Source of the DNA: Oscillospiraceae bacterium
Lineage (GTDB): Bacteria > Bacillota > Clostridia > Oscillospirales > JAAYXM01
DNA length: 40,890 nt
Assembly (NCBI GenBank): GCA_017559985.1
Contig: JAFYPW010000030.1
Span: 1-40,890 of the forward strand
Direction of reading: 5' to 3'
Shown one piece after another: positions 26,441 through 32,025 of this stretch. Position 1 is the first letter of the stretch. Each line of letters opens with the position of its first letter. The translations under genes were made by a program, and so were the position numbers. The notes under the pieces are model-generated. The model saw nothing but the letters and a program-made list of their open reading frames with translations, was not told where the DNA came from and did not search any database.

Positions 26441-26478
26441 ACCACCTGTTCAATAAAATCTTGAACAGGTGGTTTTTG
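26441..26478 (+). terminator. terminator after the EF-G paralog
   Basis: ACCACCTGTTCAA (26441-26453) and TTGAACAGGTGGT (26461-26473) form a perfect 13-bp stem with a 7-base loop, followed by TTTTG. Confidence 0.92.
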
Positions 26479-26483
26479 TTTGT

Positions 26484-26518
26484 ATATCCTTGTGAAATGT
26501 TTACATATCCTTGTGAAA
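26484..26518 (+). repeat. two direct repeats upstream of the six-gene operon promoter
   Basis: ATATCCTTGTGAAA occurs at 26484-26497 and again at 26505-26518, a 21-bp period or two turns of the helix. It lies 15 bases upstream of the -35 box, which is where an activator acting on one face of DNA would bind. No regulator gene is adjacent. Confidence 0.6.
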
Positions 26519-26532
26519 CAGGGGCTGGTTTA

Positions 26533-26560
26533 TTGACAATTAAGGCTCGGATGATATAAT
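26533..26560 (+). promoter_or_regulatory. consensus promoter of the six-gene operon
   Basis: TTGACA (26533-26538) and TATAAT (26555-26560) are both perfect, with a 16-bp spacer. The untranslated leader is about 55-60 bases. A second copy of GATGATATAATT at 26584-26595 has no -35 partner. Confidence 0.75.
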
Positions 26561-26623: not shown

Positions 26624-27466
26624 ATGAGTGAGACGAAGTATAAAAACAGAATAGGAGTTATTTATAGATTAGAGAGTCTTGTTGAGGAAGGGAAGGCGGG
26701 TGTCGACCGTCTTCTGGACCTTGGTATTGAATGTGTTCAGCTCAATGGATGGGACCCTACGATGTATACTCAGGAAGTCGCTGATAAGGTGAAAAAGCTT
26801 TTAAAAGGGAAAATTGAAGTGTCTTCTTTCTGGTGCGGATGGTCAGGTCCTCAGCAGTGGAATCCCGTTGACGGACCGTGCACTCTCGGACTGGTTCCTG
26901 AGGCATATCGCGCAATACGCCTCGAAGAGTTGAAGCGCGGTGCTGACTTTACCCGTATGCTCGGTGCACACGATATGGCCACCCATGTCGGCTTCGTGCC
27001 CGAACAGCCGGTCTATTCCGGATACCGTGAGTTGGTCAGCGCAGTTCGTGAACTTGCAGCATACTGTAAAGAGCGCGAAGTGTATTTCAATTTTGAAACA
27101 GGACAGGAAACACCGGTTACGCTTTTGCGCGTGTTCCAGGATGTGGGCGCAGACAATCTCGGTGTGAACCTTGACCCTGCAAACCTCATACTTTACGGCC
27201 GCGGCAACCCGATTGACGCTCTTGGTATCTATGGCGCTAGAATTCGCGGTGTTCACATTAAAGACGGCGACTATACAACAGACCCATACCGCAACGGTAA
27301 AGAGAGAGTTGTCGGAGAGGGTAGTGTAAACTATCCGGTATTCTTGCCAAAGCTTTTGGAGGGTGGATATAAGGGCGATTTATATATCGAAAGAGAAATC
27401 AGCGGTGAACAGCAGATGATTGATATCAGAAAAACAATTGCTTATATTAAGGAGCTTATGGCTTAA
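26624..27466 (+). CDS. sugar phosphate isomerase/epimerase-like TIM-barrel protein
   Basis: A 280-residue member of the xylose isomerase-like (AP endonuclease 2) superfamily, which includes IolE/IolI-type dehydratases and isomerases. Likely metal ligands lie at the ends of strands: Glu in YFNFETGQE, Asp in GVNLDPANLI, His in GVHIKDGDY and Glu in LYIEREISG. The early strand GIECVQLNGWD is also typical. It has no signal peptide. It opens the operon, with CGGAGG before its ATG, and is followed 14 bases later by an oxidoreductase. This isomerase-dehydrogenase pairing is common in inositol, aminocyclitol and rare-sugar catabolism. The substrate is not known. Confidence 0.85.
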   Translation: MSETKYKNRIGVIYRLESLVEEGKAGVDRLLDLGIECVQLNGWDPTMYTQEVADKVKKLLKGKIEVSSFWCGWSGPQQWNPVDGPCTLGLVPEAYRAIRLEELKRGADFTRMLGAHDMATHVGFVPEQPVYSGYRELVSAVRELAAYCKEREVYFNFETGQETPVTLLRVFQDVGADNLGVNLDPANLILYGRGNPIDALGIYGARIRGVHIKDGDYTTDPYRNGKERVVGEGSVNYPVFLPKLLEGGYKGDLYIEREISGEQQMIDIRKTIAYIKELMA

Positions 27467-27480
27467 AAGGAGAGAGTATT

Positions 27481-28497
27481 TTGTATCGTTATGCTATAAT
27501 TGGTTTTGGCGGTCTGGGTAAATTGCATCTTATCAATTTGCTTCGGCTCGAATCAGAACGAAAGGGCGAGCTTAAACTTTGCGCCATATGCGGTGCAGAC
27601 AAAGAAACTGTTTTGCGGAATGTAAGCTTGAATCTGGGTACAGTAGACATTTCAGATGTCGATTTTTCAGAATGCAATTTTTACACCGATTATAAGGAAC
27701 TTATTGAAAAGGAACGCCCCGACTTTATTTTATCTGCGCTTCCAACTTATCTCCACGAAGAAGCGGCAGTATATGCTTTGTCAAAAGGTGTTCATGTCTT
27801 TTCTGAAAAGCCGATGGCACTTACCGTCAAATCTTGTGACAATATAATTGAAGCGGCAAAAAAGAACGACAGAAAGCTTATGATCGGGCAAAGTCTGCGT
27901 TTTTCGCCTGCAATTTTAAAGCTTAAAGAAATTGTTGATAATGAGACATATGGCAAGGTTTGCAGATATGATTTCAGCAGATTTTCTCAGACACCTACCT
28001 GGTCGTGGAACAACTGGATTTTAAACCCTGAATTGAGCGGCGGATGTGTAATGGATCTGCACATACACGACGTTGATATGGTCAACTGGTTTTTCGGGAA
28101 ACCGAAAGCAGTTCATGCAATCGGAACGAGCAGAAAAGTGCCGCTTGAAAATGTTATAGTAAGGTATGACTATGACGATGTTCTGGTTACCGGCAGTGCC
28201 GATTGGTCAATGAGCCAGAAATTCCCGTTTAACGTCAGATGCATTATGAATTTTGAAAGAGCATCGGCTGTTGTTGCGGACGGAAAACTCATTATCTATA
28301 CAGATGATGAGGTGATAGAGCCCGAACTTGTTAACGAAAAGATGCACTATCTTGAAATCAAAGCTTTCGTTGAAATGATACTTGACGGAAAGAGCTGCGA
28401 TGAAATCACAACGCCGGAATCTGTTCGTGATTCTGTGCGCATTGTTCTTGCAGAAGTGGAATCCATTAAAACAAAAAAAGAGGTTCTTATTGTATAA
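27481..28497 (+). CDS. Gfo/Idh/MocA-family oxidoreductase
   Basis: A 338-residue NAD(P)-dependent sugar or inositol dehydrogenase-like enzyme. The N-terminal Rossmann fold starts YAIIGFGGLGKLH (residues 4-16). The family motif EKPMA is in GVHVFSEKPMALT (about residues 98-110). The C-terminal alpha/beta domain includes GGCVMDLHIHDVDMVNWFFG, whose HIHDVD matches the usual catalytic His/Asp region of the family. The start is TTG at 27481, with AAAGGAGAG upstream. It is co-transcribed with the TIM-barrel gene before it and the acetyltransferase gene 18 bases after it. Confidence 0.9.
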   Translation: MYRYAIIGFGGLGKLHLINLLRLESERKGELKLCAICGADKETVLRNVSLNLGTVDISDVDFSECNFYTDYKELIEKERPDFILSALPTYLHEEAAVYALSKGVHVFSEKPMALTVKSCDNIIEAAKKNDRKLMIGQSLRFSPAILKLKEIVDNETYGKVCRYDFSRFSQTPTWSWNNWILNPELSGGCVMDLHIHDVDMVNWFFGKPKAVHAIGTSRKVPLENVIVRYDYDDVLVTGSADWSMSQKFPFNVRCIMNFERASAVVADGKLIIYTDDEVIEPELVNEKMHYLEIKAFVEMILDGKSCDEITTPESVRDSVRIVLAEVESIKTKKEVLIV

Positions 28498-28515: not shown

Positions 28516-29343
28516 ATGGTAACGTCACAACAAGTCCGGGAAGCTTTGATAAAGCTCGGAATAAAAGAAGGCGACTCTATCCTGACACACTCGTCTTTTA
28601 AAAGTCTCGGAGAAACAGAAAACGGTGCAGCAACAGTCGTTGAAGGAATGAAACTTGCTGTTGGTGAGGACGGAACGGTTTTGTTTCCGACCCTCTGTCA
28701 GAAAGACTGGCCGAATGTTTATAAAAACTGGAATATGGATGCAGAGTCCGATGTCGGATATTTAACGAATTATTTCAGAAAACTGCCGGAGGCTTTGCGA
28801 AGCAACCAGGCAACACACTCTGTTGCAGCTATCGGCAAAAAGGCAGCCTATGTTACGGAAACGCACGGGGAAACAGGCCGTCGTTACGGCATATTCGGTG
28901 ACACTCCGTTTTCTGCGGATTCTCCGTGGGAAAAGATGTATCATATAGATACAAAGGTTGTTTTTCTTGGCGTTGGCATAAGAAAATGTACATTCAGACA
29001 TTTTGCGGAATATTGTTTTATGGAAGACTGCTTAAAACGCGCAGAAGGCAGTTCTGAATATGACCGCCTGAAAGGTCAGGTGTGGTGCTATGAAAACTGG
29101 GACGCTGCCGGCGTCTGGCCCCATCTTGACAGCGAATACATACAGACGGTTATGGAAAAACGGGGAATGGTTCATAAAGCAACCTGCGGAAATGCAGAGC
29201 TTCTGATGGTATCATCCGAGGATTTTGTTGATATTTCAATGGAGCTTCTGAAAAACAAGGAAAAAAAGGCACTGCTTGAAAATCACGATATATGGACAGT
29301 TCAGACCTTTATTGACTGGGTGGAGGAAATAGAAAAATTATGA
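28516..29343 (+). CDS. AAC(3)-type aminoglycoside N-acetyltransferase family protein
   Basis: A 275-residue acetyl-CoA-dependent N-acetyltransferase of the antibiotic NAT (AAC(3)/YokD) family. Matching segments include LTHSSFKSLG near the start, GTVLFPTL, RSNQATHSVAAIG (the conserved R-S-x-H-type acetyl-CoA/catalytic region) and ADSPWEKMYHIDTKVVFLGVGI. Family members that are not on resistance elements often have unknown natural substrates. The setting between sugar enzymes and a PIG-L deacetylase argues for an amino sugar or aminocyclitol substrate, not a drug. The stop overlaps the next start (ATGA). AAAGGAAAAGAGGAA precedes the ATG. Confidence 0.85.
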   Translation: MVTSQQVREALIKLGIKEGDSILTHSSFKSLGETENGAATVVEGMKLAVGEDGTVLFPTLCQKDWPNVYKNWNMDAESDVGYLTNYFRKLPEALRSNQATHSVAAIGKKAAYVTETHGETGRRYGIFGDTPFSADSPWEKMYHIDTKVVFLGVGIRKCTFRHFAEYCFMEDCLKRAEGSSEYDRLKGQVWCYENWDAAGVWPHLDSEYIQTVMEKRGMVHKATCGNAELLMVSSEDFVDISMELLKNKEKKALLENHDIWTVQTFIDWVEEIEKL

Positions 29344-30323
29344 GCCAGATTGTATATGATGAAGCATATGAACGCGATTTAGCAAAATATTTTGATGAAA
29401 ATTTGCCTGAAAAGATTTATGATGCGCATTTTCACATCAGCCGTGCTTATACGGAGCGTTGCGGCTATCCCGGAACGCCGTTTGAGCAGTACAGCCAATT
29501 TATGCAAAAATACATATGCAGACCTATGAGCGGCGGTATGGTAATGCCTCAGCCGTCAAGATTGCACACGCCGGAAACTCTTGCGGATGAAAATCAATAC
29601 AATCTTGCGCTCGCAAAAGAAAAAGGACTTGCGGCCGGGTTGATTGTAACACCCGGATGTGGGCGGGAAGCAACTGAGAAAATGCTGGATACGCATGAAC
29701 ATATAAAGGTTTTAAAGCCTTATCATGCATACTGTCCTATGGATATGAACAGGTATGAATCTGATATTCTTGATTATGCTCCGGAGTGGATGTGGCAGTT
29801 GGCAAATGACAGAGAGTTTCCGATTCTGATTCACCTCTCGCATTATCAGAATATGCTCAATGACGAAAATAACTGGGGACAGATTCGTATGTTGTGCGCT
29901 AAATATCCCAGAGTGAAGCTGATTCTGGCACATTGTGCAATGGGGCATAATGTCAGAAAACTTCGTCTCGGGCTTGAACATATAAAAGATATAGAAAATA
30001 TCTGGTTTGATTGCTCAGGCGCTGCAGAAACAATGTCAATTTACTATTGCCTGAAAGCATTCGGTGCGGAGCGTATGATGTATGGCGGGGATTATGATCA
30101 CGGCGAATCTGTTGGTCGCATATGCTCCTTTGGAAGTAATTTTATCGGCTTTCATGAGCCGTATATAAATAAAGAAGCAATACCTCCGGATTATAAATAT
30201 CAGCCACTGAACAACGCGCAGGAGTGCACAATGGCGGCTCTTGAAGCAATAGAGGTGCTTGGTTTGAGTAAAACGGATGTAGAAAATATATTCTATAACA
30301 ATGCCGCAAAACTGTTTGCTTGA
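29340..30323 (+). CDS. amidohydrolase family protein (TIM-barrel metal-dependent hydrolase)
   Basis: A 327-residue protein of the amidohydrolase-related group (Pfam Amidohydro_2-like). Metal-binding candidates are the H-x-H in YDAHFHIS (about residue 30), His in ILIHLSHYQN, His in LILAHCAMGHN and Asp in YGGDYDHGE. Known members hydrolyse or decarboxylate cyclic compounds, including sugar lactones. Its start overlaps the acetyltransferase stop by 4 bases, implying coupled synthesis. The substrate is unknown; a ring-opening or lactonase step in the pathway is an inference. Confidence 0.82.
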   Translation: MSQIVYDEAYERDLAKYFDENLPEKIYDAHFHISRAYTERCGYPGTPFEQYSQFMQKYICRPMSGGMVMPQPSRLHTPETLADENQYNLALAKEKGLAAGLIVTPGCGREATEKMLDTHEHIKVLKPYHAYCPMDMNRYESDILDYAPEWMWQLANDREFPILIHLSHYQNMLNDENNWGQIRMLCAKYPRVKLILAHCAMGHNVRKLRLGLEHIKDIENIWFDCSGAAETMSIYYCLKAFGAERMMYGGDYDHGESVGRICSFGSNFIGFHEPYINKEAIPPDYKYQPLNNAQECTMAALEAIEVLGLSKTDVENIFYNNAAKLFA

Positions 30324-30346
30324 TTTTTTGAAGGTGCGTGTTATAA

Positions 30347-31222
30347 ATGGAAAAGCAGCTTAAAATTTTAATGATAGGTGCACACCCCGATGACAACGAT
30401 TTTCGTTGCGGCGGGACGGCGCTCAACTTTATAGAAAAAGGACATTCCGTAAGATTTTTGTCGGTGTGCAGTGGTAGTGCCGGACATCATACTATGTCTC
30501 CGGACGAGCTCTGCCTGCGCAGACAGAAAGAATCGGAGGCGGCATCTGCAATAAGCGGAATTGAGTATGACATATGGGATATTCCAGATTGCGAAGTTAT
30601 GGCTGATCTTGAAACGCGCAAACGCATGGTTTGCTATATAAGAGAGTATCAACCGGATATTATTTTCACACATCGTGCAAATGATTATCATGCGGATCAC
30701 AGAAACGTTGCATTGTTGGTTCAGGATGCTTCATATCTTCTGATAGTTCCTAATTTCTGTCCCGATGTCAGTGCTTTGAAAAAGACGCCTGTCATTATGT
30801 ATTTTTACGATAAATTCAAAAATCCGTCTTTTGCGCCTGATGTCGTCGTTTCAATTGACAGCAAAATTGATAAAAAATATCAGATGATCGATTGTTACGA
30901 GTCGCAGGTCTATGAATGGTTGCCGTACACGAACGGAGTCCTTTGCGAAGTGCCGAAGGATAAAGAAGAACGCCTTGAATGGCTGAAAAATCCGCGCGTC
31001 CCGCGTGACGGAACAATGTTGACCGAAAAAGACCTGAATATTCCCATAAAGAGTAATAACAGTGAATACAGAGAAGCTGCGCCTGCTGTGAAGTTCCGCG
31101 ATAAGTTAATAGAACGCTATGGTGAAGAAGGAAAATCGGTTCTCTTTGCAGAAGCGTTCCAGGTTTCTGAATACGGTTCACCGCTGTCTTTTGAGAAAGG
31201 TAAAGAAATTTTCACTTTTTAG
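30347..31222 (+). CDS. PIG-L family deacetylase
   Basis: A 291-residue zinc-dependent N-deacetylase of the PIG-L/LmbE family, which removes acetyl groups from GlcNAc-type substrates (for example MshB, BtrD and BshB). The zinc and catalytic motif AHPDDNDFRCGG is at residues 13-24, and the second ligand motif is in THRANDYHADHRNVA (H-x-D-H). There is no signal peptide, so it works on a cytosolic small molecule. It lies 23 bases after the amidohydrolase and 16 bases before the DUF4886 gene. Its pairing with an N-acetyltransferase in one operon is notable. Confidence 0.9.
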   Translation: MEKQLKILMIGAHPDDNDFRCGGTALNFIEKGHSVRFLSVCSGSAGHHTMSPDELCLRRQKESEAASAISGIEYDIWDIPDCEVMADLETRKRMVCYIREYQPDIIFTHRANDYHADHRNVALLVQDASYLLIVPNFCPDVSALKKTPVIMYFYDKFKNPSFAPDVVVSIDSKIDKKYQMIDCYESQVYEWLPYTNGVLCEVPKDKEERLEWLKNPRVPRDGTMLTEKDLNIPIKSNNSEYREAAPAVKFRDKLIERYGEEGKSVLFAEAFQVSEYGSPLSFEKGKEIFTF

Positions 31223-31238
31223 TGTATGAGGTGATATG

Positions 31239-31982
31239 ATGCAAATTCTCTCAATCGGAAACAGCTTTTCGCAAGATGCACAAAGATACCTTAATCGCAT
31301 CGCAAAAGCTGATGGCTTTCAGCTCAATACATTCAACCTTTACATAGGCGGTTGTTCGCTTTCGACTCATTACAGAAATATGATGAGTGAAGAACGTGTT
31401 TATGCTCTTGAAATGAACGGGGAAAGCACAGGGTTTAATGTGTCGCTTAAAGAAGCTCTTTTAAATCGTGACTGGGACGTTATAACTCTCCAGCAGGCGA
31501 GTCATAAATCTCCGTATTACGACACCTATCAGCCTTATCTGAATAAAATTGCAGAATATGTAAGAGGCTGTGTTCCGGGTGCACGAATTGCAGTTCATCA
31601 GACCTGGGCATACGAGCAGGGAAGTCAGCGGCTTAATGCAGAACTCGGATATGATAATCATACGGATATGTTTGATGACCTTAAGATGGCTTATTCAAAA
31701 GCTGCAAGGGACATTGGCGCAGATTTTCTGATTCCGTCGGGAGAGGTTTTGGAAGAGCTTGTTTTGTCCGGAATAAAGGCACATCGCGACACGTTTCACG
31801 CAAGTCTCGGCGTTGGCAGATATGCGCTTGGGCTCATCTGGTATTCTATGTTGACCGGGCGTGATATCGCGAACAATTTATTTTCTGATTTTGACGTTGA
31901 AGTTTCTCTTTCGGATGTTGAAACTGCAAAAAAATGCGTTTTGGAGTGTTTTAGGAAATACAGAATTGCAGAATATAAATAA
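31239..31982 (+). CDS. DUF4886 SGNH-like hydrolase
   Basis: A 247-residue protein of the DUF4886 group, related to SGNH/GDSL esterases. The block I serine is in LSIGNSFSQDAQRYL (Ser at about residue 9). The SGNH glycine may be in YIGGCS, an Asn-containing block is not clear, and the C-terminal dyad is in AHRDTFHASLG (Asp and His). There is no signal peptide. The second of two adjacent ATGs (31239) is chosen because GAGGTGA is better spaced for it. It is the last gene of the operon, before a terminator. An O-deacylase role is plausible but unproved. Confidence 0.8.
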   Translation: MQILSIGNSFSQDAQRYLNRIAKADGFQLNTFNLYIGGCSLSTHYRNMMSEERVYALEMNGESTGFNVSLKEALLNRDWDVITLQQASHKSPYYDTYQPYLNKIAEYVRGCVPGARIAVHQTWAYEQGSQRLNAELGYDNHTDMFDDLKMAYSKAARDIGADFLIPSGEVLEELVLSGIKAHRDTFHASLGVGRYALGLIWYSMLTGRDIANNLFSDFDVEVSLSDVETAKKCVLECFRKYRIAEYK

Positions 31983-31991
31983 GAGTTACCA

Positions 31992-32025
31992 AAAACCCGT
32001 GGGAATACACATTCCTGTGGGTTTT
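31992..32025 (+). terminator. terminator of the six-gene operon
   Basis: AAAACCCGTGGGAAT (31992-32006) pairs with ATTCCTGTGGGTTTT (32011-32025), with three wobble pairs in the middle and a 4-base loop. Confidence 0.85.

Follow-up and report, generated by a model that had tools for sequence, protein, structure and literature searches.

The window analysed here, a 40,890-nucleotide (nt) contig from an Oscillospiraceae bacterium (JAFYPW010000030.1, assembly GCA_017559985.1; coordinates on the forward strand), carries a predicted six-gene operon that encodes both an AAC(3)-like N-acetyltransferase (AAC3) and a PIG-L de-N-acetylase. Our best explanation, held with moderate confidence, is that this is a modular operon for glycoside or amino-sugar catabolism, in which AAC3 and an adjoining amidohydrolase are separate from the PIG-L step. 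Four patterns among relatives suggest this interpretation: the catalytic dyad of AAC3 is kept in 16/16 sequences, the HxDD+H set of PIG-L in 17/17, the adjacency of AAC3 and an amidohydrolase gene in 9/15 loci, and the pairing of the first two operon genes, Iso and Gfo, in 6/11. The locus is a real combination of known families, and we regard the clade of AAC(3)-like enzymes and their amidohydrolase neighbour, rather than the acetyltransferase/deacetylase pair, as its more interesting part.

The six closely packed genes were identified from open reading frames (ORFs) and Pfam matches and all lie on the + strand. In order, they encode a xylose-isomerase-like TIM barrel of the AP_endonuc_2 family (Iso, 280 residues, 26624..27466; PF01261, E 2.1e-28), a Gfo/Idh/MocA dehydrogenase (Gfo, 338 residues with a TTG start, 27481..28497), AAC3 (275 residues, 28516..29343; Antibiotic_NAT, PF02522), an Amidohydro_2 metal-dependent hydrolase (327 residues, 29340..30323), a CE14-type PIG-L de-N-acetylase of a long subfamily with a C-terminal extension (291 residues, 30347..31222; PF02585) and a DUF4886 protein (248 residues, 31236..31982; PF16227, E 8.7e-63). 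We take CE14 and PIG-L to be the same family, and the DUF4886 protein to be SGNH-hydrolase-like. Intergenic spacing across the unit is 14, 18, -4, 23 and 13 nt, the 4-nt overlap joining AAC3 to the amidohydrolase gene. A sigma-70-type promoter (TTGACA-16-TATAAT with TG before the -10 element; 26533..26560, + strand) matches the consensus at 12/12 positions, and terminator-like stem-loops flank the operon upstream (26441-26473, 13 pairs) and close it downstream (31992..32025, + strand, 15 pairs); within it, the + strand stem-loop matches were two weak ones of 7 and 5 pairs. Because these scans yield many chance matches (21 promoters vs 11.6 expected, 7 terminators vs 4.9 expected), we relied only on the promoter with the perfect match and on the two long stem-loops. 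By the consensus promoter, flanking terminators and short gaps, a single transcript is well supported at the sequence level for the six genes, in agreement with an original prediction that had placed AAC3 and PIG-L in one transcript; that prediction was silent on the amidohydrolase gene between them.

AAC3 matched the Antibiotic_NAT profile with E 4.3e-39 and 134.9 bits (cut-off 25) over residues 23-245, and is the sole PF02522 match of its genome. A profile of 16 AAC3 relatives matched 21 distinct solved sequences, with a best E of 2e-31. His162 and Glu165 are invariant in all 16 sequences of the AAC3 clade, window included, and were kept in 27/27 once resistance enzymes, YokD, haloarchaeal and other sequences joined the alignment. 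His162 aligns with His154 of AAC(3)-IVa and with the residue altered in the BA2930 H183A structure. A His/Glu dyad is named for these enzymes, and His154 is described as the residue altered in a catalytically impaired AAC(3)-IVa (PMC8956665); from its invariance, we infer that Glu165 is the dyad Glu in the window. AAC3 thus looks catalytically competent, as judged from its aligned residues. A structural model built with three distant relatives had a predicted local distance difference test score (pLDDT) of 57.8 and a predicted template modelling score of 0.64, and the fold matches of this weak model (FrbF, AAC(3) enzymes and coenzyme A (CoA) complexes) had root-mean-square deviations of mostly 7-9 Å.

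AAC(3)-II, -IV and -VI resemble AAC3 in belonging to PF02522 and in carrying the catalytic His and the following Glu, but AAC3 differs from them in several respects. It scored below the cut-off of every NCBIfam AAC(3) model it hit (101.3/270, 85/420, 70.1/480, 48.9/560 and 44.6/675 bits). In a maximum-likelihood tree of 27 sequences, a small sampling in which one sequence (L009; L and G numbers are our labels for loci and genomes) is a long branch, the AAC3 clade had 100/100 support and stood apart from AAC(3)-II, -IV, -VI, YokD and the haloarchaeal group. Around the drug bound by AAC(3)-IVa, four positions are described: Trp63, Asp67, Glu185 and Cys190 (PMC8956665). In AAC3, Leu takes the place of Trp63 and Ser that of Glu185, positions at which AAC(3)-VIa and -IId carry Trp and Asp. 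Asp67 is retained. Cys190 aligns with a gap, to which we give little weight since this residue is also not kept in -VIa or -IId. Tyr69, Trp72, Pro202 and Trp268 are present in 16/16 sequences of the clade and in 0/11 other aligned sequences (YokD included, FrbF and BA2930 not), and His101 of AAC3 also occurs in the haloarchaeal sequences and in L009, the resistance enzymes and YokD having other residues there. FrbF, YokD and BA2930, among the best sequence or fold matches of AAC3, share its fold family and catalytic His at roughly 20-30% identity, and are described as Antibiotic_NAT members without aminoglycoside activity (PMC8956665).

Hits to the AAC3 clade were obtained in 9/394 genomes of the order (E<=1e-35), 8/391 of the class (E<=1e-40) and 1/398 of the phylum (E<=1e-40); these draws overlap, the window genome is in each, and the sole phylum hit is the window genome itself. 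The resulting 15 relatives are 37-48% identical to AAC3. A scan of genome contigs gave three distant loci. Weaker matches in G012, G035, G039 and G053, a second match in G023, and L009-L011 stand outside the 16-sequence set, L009 being nonetheless within the 27-sequence tree. A same-strand Amidohydro_2-type gene adjoins AAC3 in nine of the 15 relatives (G152, G079, G090, G260, G233, G140, G1107, G988 and G795), as assigned by Pfam in four (L034, L020, L021 and L022) and by BLAST at 58-93% identity in the other five. Two types of amidohydrolase were found: the window and G152 share one (39% identical), and the other eight relatives carry a shorter one. Tested cross-type pairs gave no meaningful BLAST match, and a PDB sequence search with the amidohydrolase reached a best E of 0.042. 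In G152, an ornithine cyclodeaminase/mu-crystallin gene (L020 6961-7974) lies 5' of AAC3, and an AraC-like ORF on the opposite strand separates the two.

PIG-L genes were much rarer beside AAC3. No PF02585 match lay within 10 kb of AAC3 on its contig in 8/9 of the AAC3-amidohydrolase loci, and among all 15 relatives a PIG-L gene was that close in one (G988, 7.6 kb) vs 0.27 expected by chance, an expectation that ignores loss at contig ends. In several relatives AAC3 lies near a contig end, and a nearby PIG-L gene may be missed there. The AAC3-PIG-L pairing is not conserved in the Clostridia relatives sampled, and with an amidohydrolase as the usual AAC3 neighbour, the case for AAC3 and PIG-L as a functional pair is weakened.

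PIG-L itself matched PF02585 with E 5.8e-26 and 91.9 bits (cut-off 28.2). His13, Asp15, Asp16 and His118 form its HxDD+H set and were present in all 17 proteins compared; the set is also common to BshB, diacetylchitobiose deacetylase and the haloarchaeal PIG-L proteins, and is described, with an Asp as general base, as the LmbE-like superfamily motif (PMC4101496). By this motif, PIG-L appears to be a catalytically competent de-N-acetylase. Its best NCBIfam model was BshB1 (104.1 bits, below the cut-off of 182.5). The best single-sequence PDB match was 5cgz, a 4-oxalmesaconate hydratase with HSAD where the window has HPDD, and we rejected a hydratase identity, since the window PIG-L has the general-base Asp. 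Some PIG-L was found in 19/19 genomes or records searched, and its mere presence is uninformative. The window genome holds another PIG-L gene on contig C30 (L150), BshB1-like below cut-off, next to a DegT aminotransferase whose best score, also below cut-off, is to PseC; that locus may serve surface-sugar synthesis.

A search with the long PIG-L returned 12 plasmid records at >=80% coverage, all haloarchaeal, and 13 long-type loci, whose PIG-L is 40-48% identical to that of the window, were examined on nine of these records. Two of the loci (L153 and L156) have heparinase II/III, GH20, D-aminoacylase and class V aminotransferase genes near PIG-L. Four carry ABC transporter, mandelate racemase, class V aminotransferase, glucose 1-dehydrogenase and Rid genes, and the other seven are of mixed content. 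L153 and L156 also hold a GNAT acetyltransferase and are possibly a glycan degradation cluster. Chitin clusters of Natrarchaeobius that encode a CE14 deacetylase, glucose dehydrogenase, putative ammonia-lyase, IclR and RutC have been predicted to serve N-acetylglucosamine catabolism starting with CE14 deacetylation (PMC12343721), and in oxidative chitin catabolism deacetylation is described as proven for OngB, a D-aminoacylase relative (PMC9537276). Because several haloarchaeal loci hold genes of glycan or amino-sugar catabolism, and with these published readings, our best guess for the window PIG-L is a catabolic amino-sugar deacetylase.

The first two genes have a different pattern of association. 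A Gfo relative adjoined Iso or stood one gene off in 6/11 fetched Iso loci (38-59% identity), including loci from the window's genus (G003) and family (G008), and neither AAC3 nor PIG-L was present in any of the 11. A second TIM-barrel gene beside Iso-Gfo was confirmed by Pfam in both relatives tested (L125 and L126). Around other PIG-L relatives (13 stretches), AAC3 was found in none and Iso only in L070 from G1107, where Iso, Gfo (32%) and PIG-L occur together with M24, ASRT and creatininase genes and no AAC3. The window operon therefore looks like Iso-Gfo to which AAC3-amidohydrolase and PIG-L have been added.

This layout resembles in outline the O-/C-glycoside beta-elimination operons (OGE and DgpA), in which, as in the window, Gfo/Idh/MocA genes accompany sugar-isomerase-like TIM barrel genes; the Agrobacterium operon is described as having Gfo with two sugar-isomerase-like genes (PMC10628242). 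DgpA is among the PDB matches of the window Gfo. The best PDB sequence match of Iso was 3tva, and OGE is absent from its PDB matches; the likeness to OGE is one of gene layout. The beta-elimination operons also have two TIM barrel genes, whereas the window has one, plus AAC3, the amidohydrolase, PIG-L and DUF4886. We consider Iso a candidate 3-keto-glycoside eliminase or isomerase. The matches of Gfo include inositol dehydrogenases, well under equivalog cut-offs, and a catabolic link of the operon to amino-inositols is conceivable.

By analogy with the 3-keto-glycoside beta-elimination operons, Iso and Gfo probably form a base module that would oxidise a sugar ring and then cleave or isomerise the resulting keto-sugar. 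PIG-L would strip the N-acetyl group from an amino sugar, or from its oxidised form, by way of a metal site and Asp15. The amidohydrolase may hydrolyse a C-N or lactone bond and would be paired with AAC3 as a two-gene cassette, while AAC3 would move an acetyl group from acetyl-CoA to an amine by way of His162/Glu165; the substrate, the order of steps and the use of acetyl-CoA are presumed here. A separate AAC3-amidohydrolase cassette would place the two opposing activities on different molecules or positions, rather than have them cycle on one amine.

Several observations weigh against the modular interpretation. In several relatives a further TIM-barrel gene accompanies Iso-Gfo, and the window has none. 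The amidohydrolase is not adjacent to AAC3 in five of the 15 relatives (G023, G252, G833, G827, in which a Gfo-like start follows AAC3, and G1120, whose contig continues for about 300 nt past AAC3). The G829 contig stops 81 nt past AAC3, too early to judge adjacency. The amidohydrolase modelled alone reached pLDDT 42.6, which was too poor, and the model was not used. A creatininase/ASRT/M24 trio, 72-81% identical, lies both around AAC3 in G833 (L038 224-3325) and at the PIG-L locus L070 (3720-6036). Similarly, a 703-residue protein is encoded after AAC3-amidohydrolase-Gfo-phosphodiesterase in G1107 and G988 (L034 6931-9039 and L036 14363-16474), and a 42% relative is found in G252 (L068, from 3359 onward), 5 kb from PIG-L. 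The presence of the trio and of the 703-residue protein at both AAC3 and PIG-L loci fits a shared pathway. AAC3 and PIG-L are within 10 kb of each other in G988, as noted above, and on three haloarchaeal plasmids among the matches listed, an AAC(3) and a PIG-L gene are separated by 1.6, 5.9 and 3.0 kb. Finally, a long PIG-L (E<=1e-60) is present in 9/16 AAC3-clade genomes vs 8/295 order genomes, an association uncorrected for relatedness, with four of those eight order genomes being AAC3 genomes. Neither a co-occurrence value of 2.7e-5, which assumes that the 295 genomes took in all nine AAC3-positive ones of the order, includes the window and is uncorrected for relatedness, nor an adjacency value of 1e-20, which rests on an assumed gene count, was used. 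Given the haloarchaeal linkage and the long PIG-L association, AAC3 and PIG-L may yet act jointly.

Both creatininases of the trio also match 3-dehydro-scyllo-inosose hydrolase, far under cut-off. The 703-residue protein, scanned in L034, had no Pfam match at E 0.001. ASRT domains have been proposed as sugar binders (PMC2739507).

One form of joint action would be sequential or protective acetylation, in which AAC3 would first acetylate an amine and, after intermediate reactions, PIG-L would take the acetyl group off again; we consider this possible, if doubtful. It would account for both genes lying in the same predicted transcript, for the 7.6-kb spacing in G988 and for the partner genes common to AAC3 and PIG-L loci. 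The scm cluster for S-(2-succino)cysteine provides a precedent, as ScmL is described as acetylating first and ScmP as deacetylating last (PMC12757645), so that acetylation and deacetylation are joined in one catabolic route; the window resembles it in having an acetyltransferase and a deacetylase in one catabolic cluster, but has no flavin mononucleotide monooxygenase among its six genes, and the likeness is by description. A search of titles and abstract openings in the open-licence literature found no description of AAC(3)/PIG-L gene pairing or catabolism.

The haloarchaeal plasmids also speak for such a sequence of steps. Among the matches listed (40 of 3160 matching records), three plasmids carry an AAC(3) >=60% identical to that of Halomontanus, and haloarchaeal AAC(3) genes under 60% identity may be missed because 40 of the 3160 are listed. 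With 4, 2 and 1 PIG-L genes per plasmid, the random-placement probabilities of the observed linkages are 0.021, 0.035 and 0.0185. The three hosts, however, belong to one family (Natrialbaceae) with flanking genes in common and are not independent, and the Natronosalvus PIG-L is a short, BshB1-like type in which the C-terminal extension of the window PIG-L was not seen. Three AAC(3)-like places occur on the Halomontanus plasmid, one of them located, and the stretches fetched around its three other PIG-L genes have no annotated AAC(3), which makes its value of 0.021 about threefold too favourable. An AAC(3) was within the fetched stretch in 2/13 of the haloarchaeal long-type PIG-L loci, and the rarity of PIG-L near AAC3 in the Clostridia relatives also argues against consecutive action. 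The original prediction had proposed that the two enzymes may act on different amines of one molecule or take off and put back acyl groups in sequence. The apparent competence of both enzymes and the haloarchaeal linkage leave that proposal standing, and the scm route gives its sequential form a precedent, but the notion of AAC3 and PIG-L as a functional pair has lost ground.

A broader version of consecutive action strikes us as rather unlikely. A clade of the AAC(3) fold, a fold known mainly for drug resistance, would serve sugar catabolism both in Clostridia-like bacteria and, on a branch of its own, in haloarchaea, with acetyl transfer and PIG-L deacetylation consecutive on one amino sugar, and this acetyl relay would admit free or desulfated amino sugars.

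The operon might also be a chance assembly, in which a mobile AAC3-amidohydrolase cassette landed in a sugar operon with no metabolic tie to PIG-L. In G079, the amidohydrolase-AAC3 pair lies between two 300-nt direct repeats of 91% identity (L021, 9102-9401 and 11865-12164), hinting that the two-gene cassette can move. The scattered distribution of the AAC3 clade in the order would agree with such movement, as would G003, of the same genus as the window, which has Iso-Gfo but neither an AAC3 of the clade nor a long PIG-L. On the other side, the 4-nt overlap and short gaps suggest a settled operon, its base composition resembles that of its neighbours, and no such 300-nt repeats were found in the window operon (repeats were searched in G079 and the window operon only). 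On balance, we judge chance assembly unlikely.

A role in making aminoglycosides or aminocyclitols, or in self-resistance, in which PIG-L would be the counterpart of BtrD or NeoD, enzymes named by the original prediction when it raised a link to aminocyclitol-like compounds, is very improbable: the family names match by Pfam, the NCBIfam AAC(3) models are hit below cut-off, BtrD is described as a PIG-L enzyme (PMC4101496) and the genome has ten DegT-family matches, eight of them over cut-off, but none of these is among the six operon genes, the positions equivalent to Trp63 and the acidic residue 185 are altered in AAC3, its clade is separate from the resistance enzymes, PIG-L scores best to BshB1, several loci of its haloarchaeal kin are catabolic, and the sole DHQ-synthase-family gene is AroB (344.3 bits vs a cut-off of 305), which leaves aminocyclitol biosynthesis unsupported. 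No 2-deoxy-scyllo-inosose synthase was seen in the window genome, which is 85.86% complete, so that such a gene may have been missed.

Two further results concern the operon and its surroundings. Two 21-nt tandem direct repeats, the second copy at 90%, lie just 5' of the promoter (26477..26518, + strand; repeat search) and, from their position only, may be a regulator site. An anti-phage defence function was considered and rejected, as PADLOC gave no match at E 0.001 for AAC3, the amidohydrolase, PIG-L or DUF4886.

Taken together, the kept catalytic residues, the changed drug-site residues, the amidohydrolase neighbour and the sugar operon suggest that AAC3 has a metabolic role and a natural substrate. 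AAC(3) homologues in metagenomic data are easily annotated as resistance genes, and a metabolic AAC(3) clade would bear on the origin of the AAC(3) resistance enzymes. The long PIG-L subfamily, in turn, is a defined set of candidate proteins for amino-sugar deacetylation in Clostridia-like bacteria and haloarchaea.

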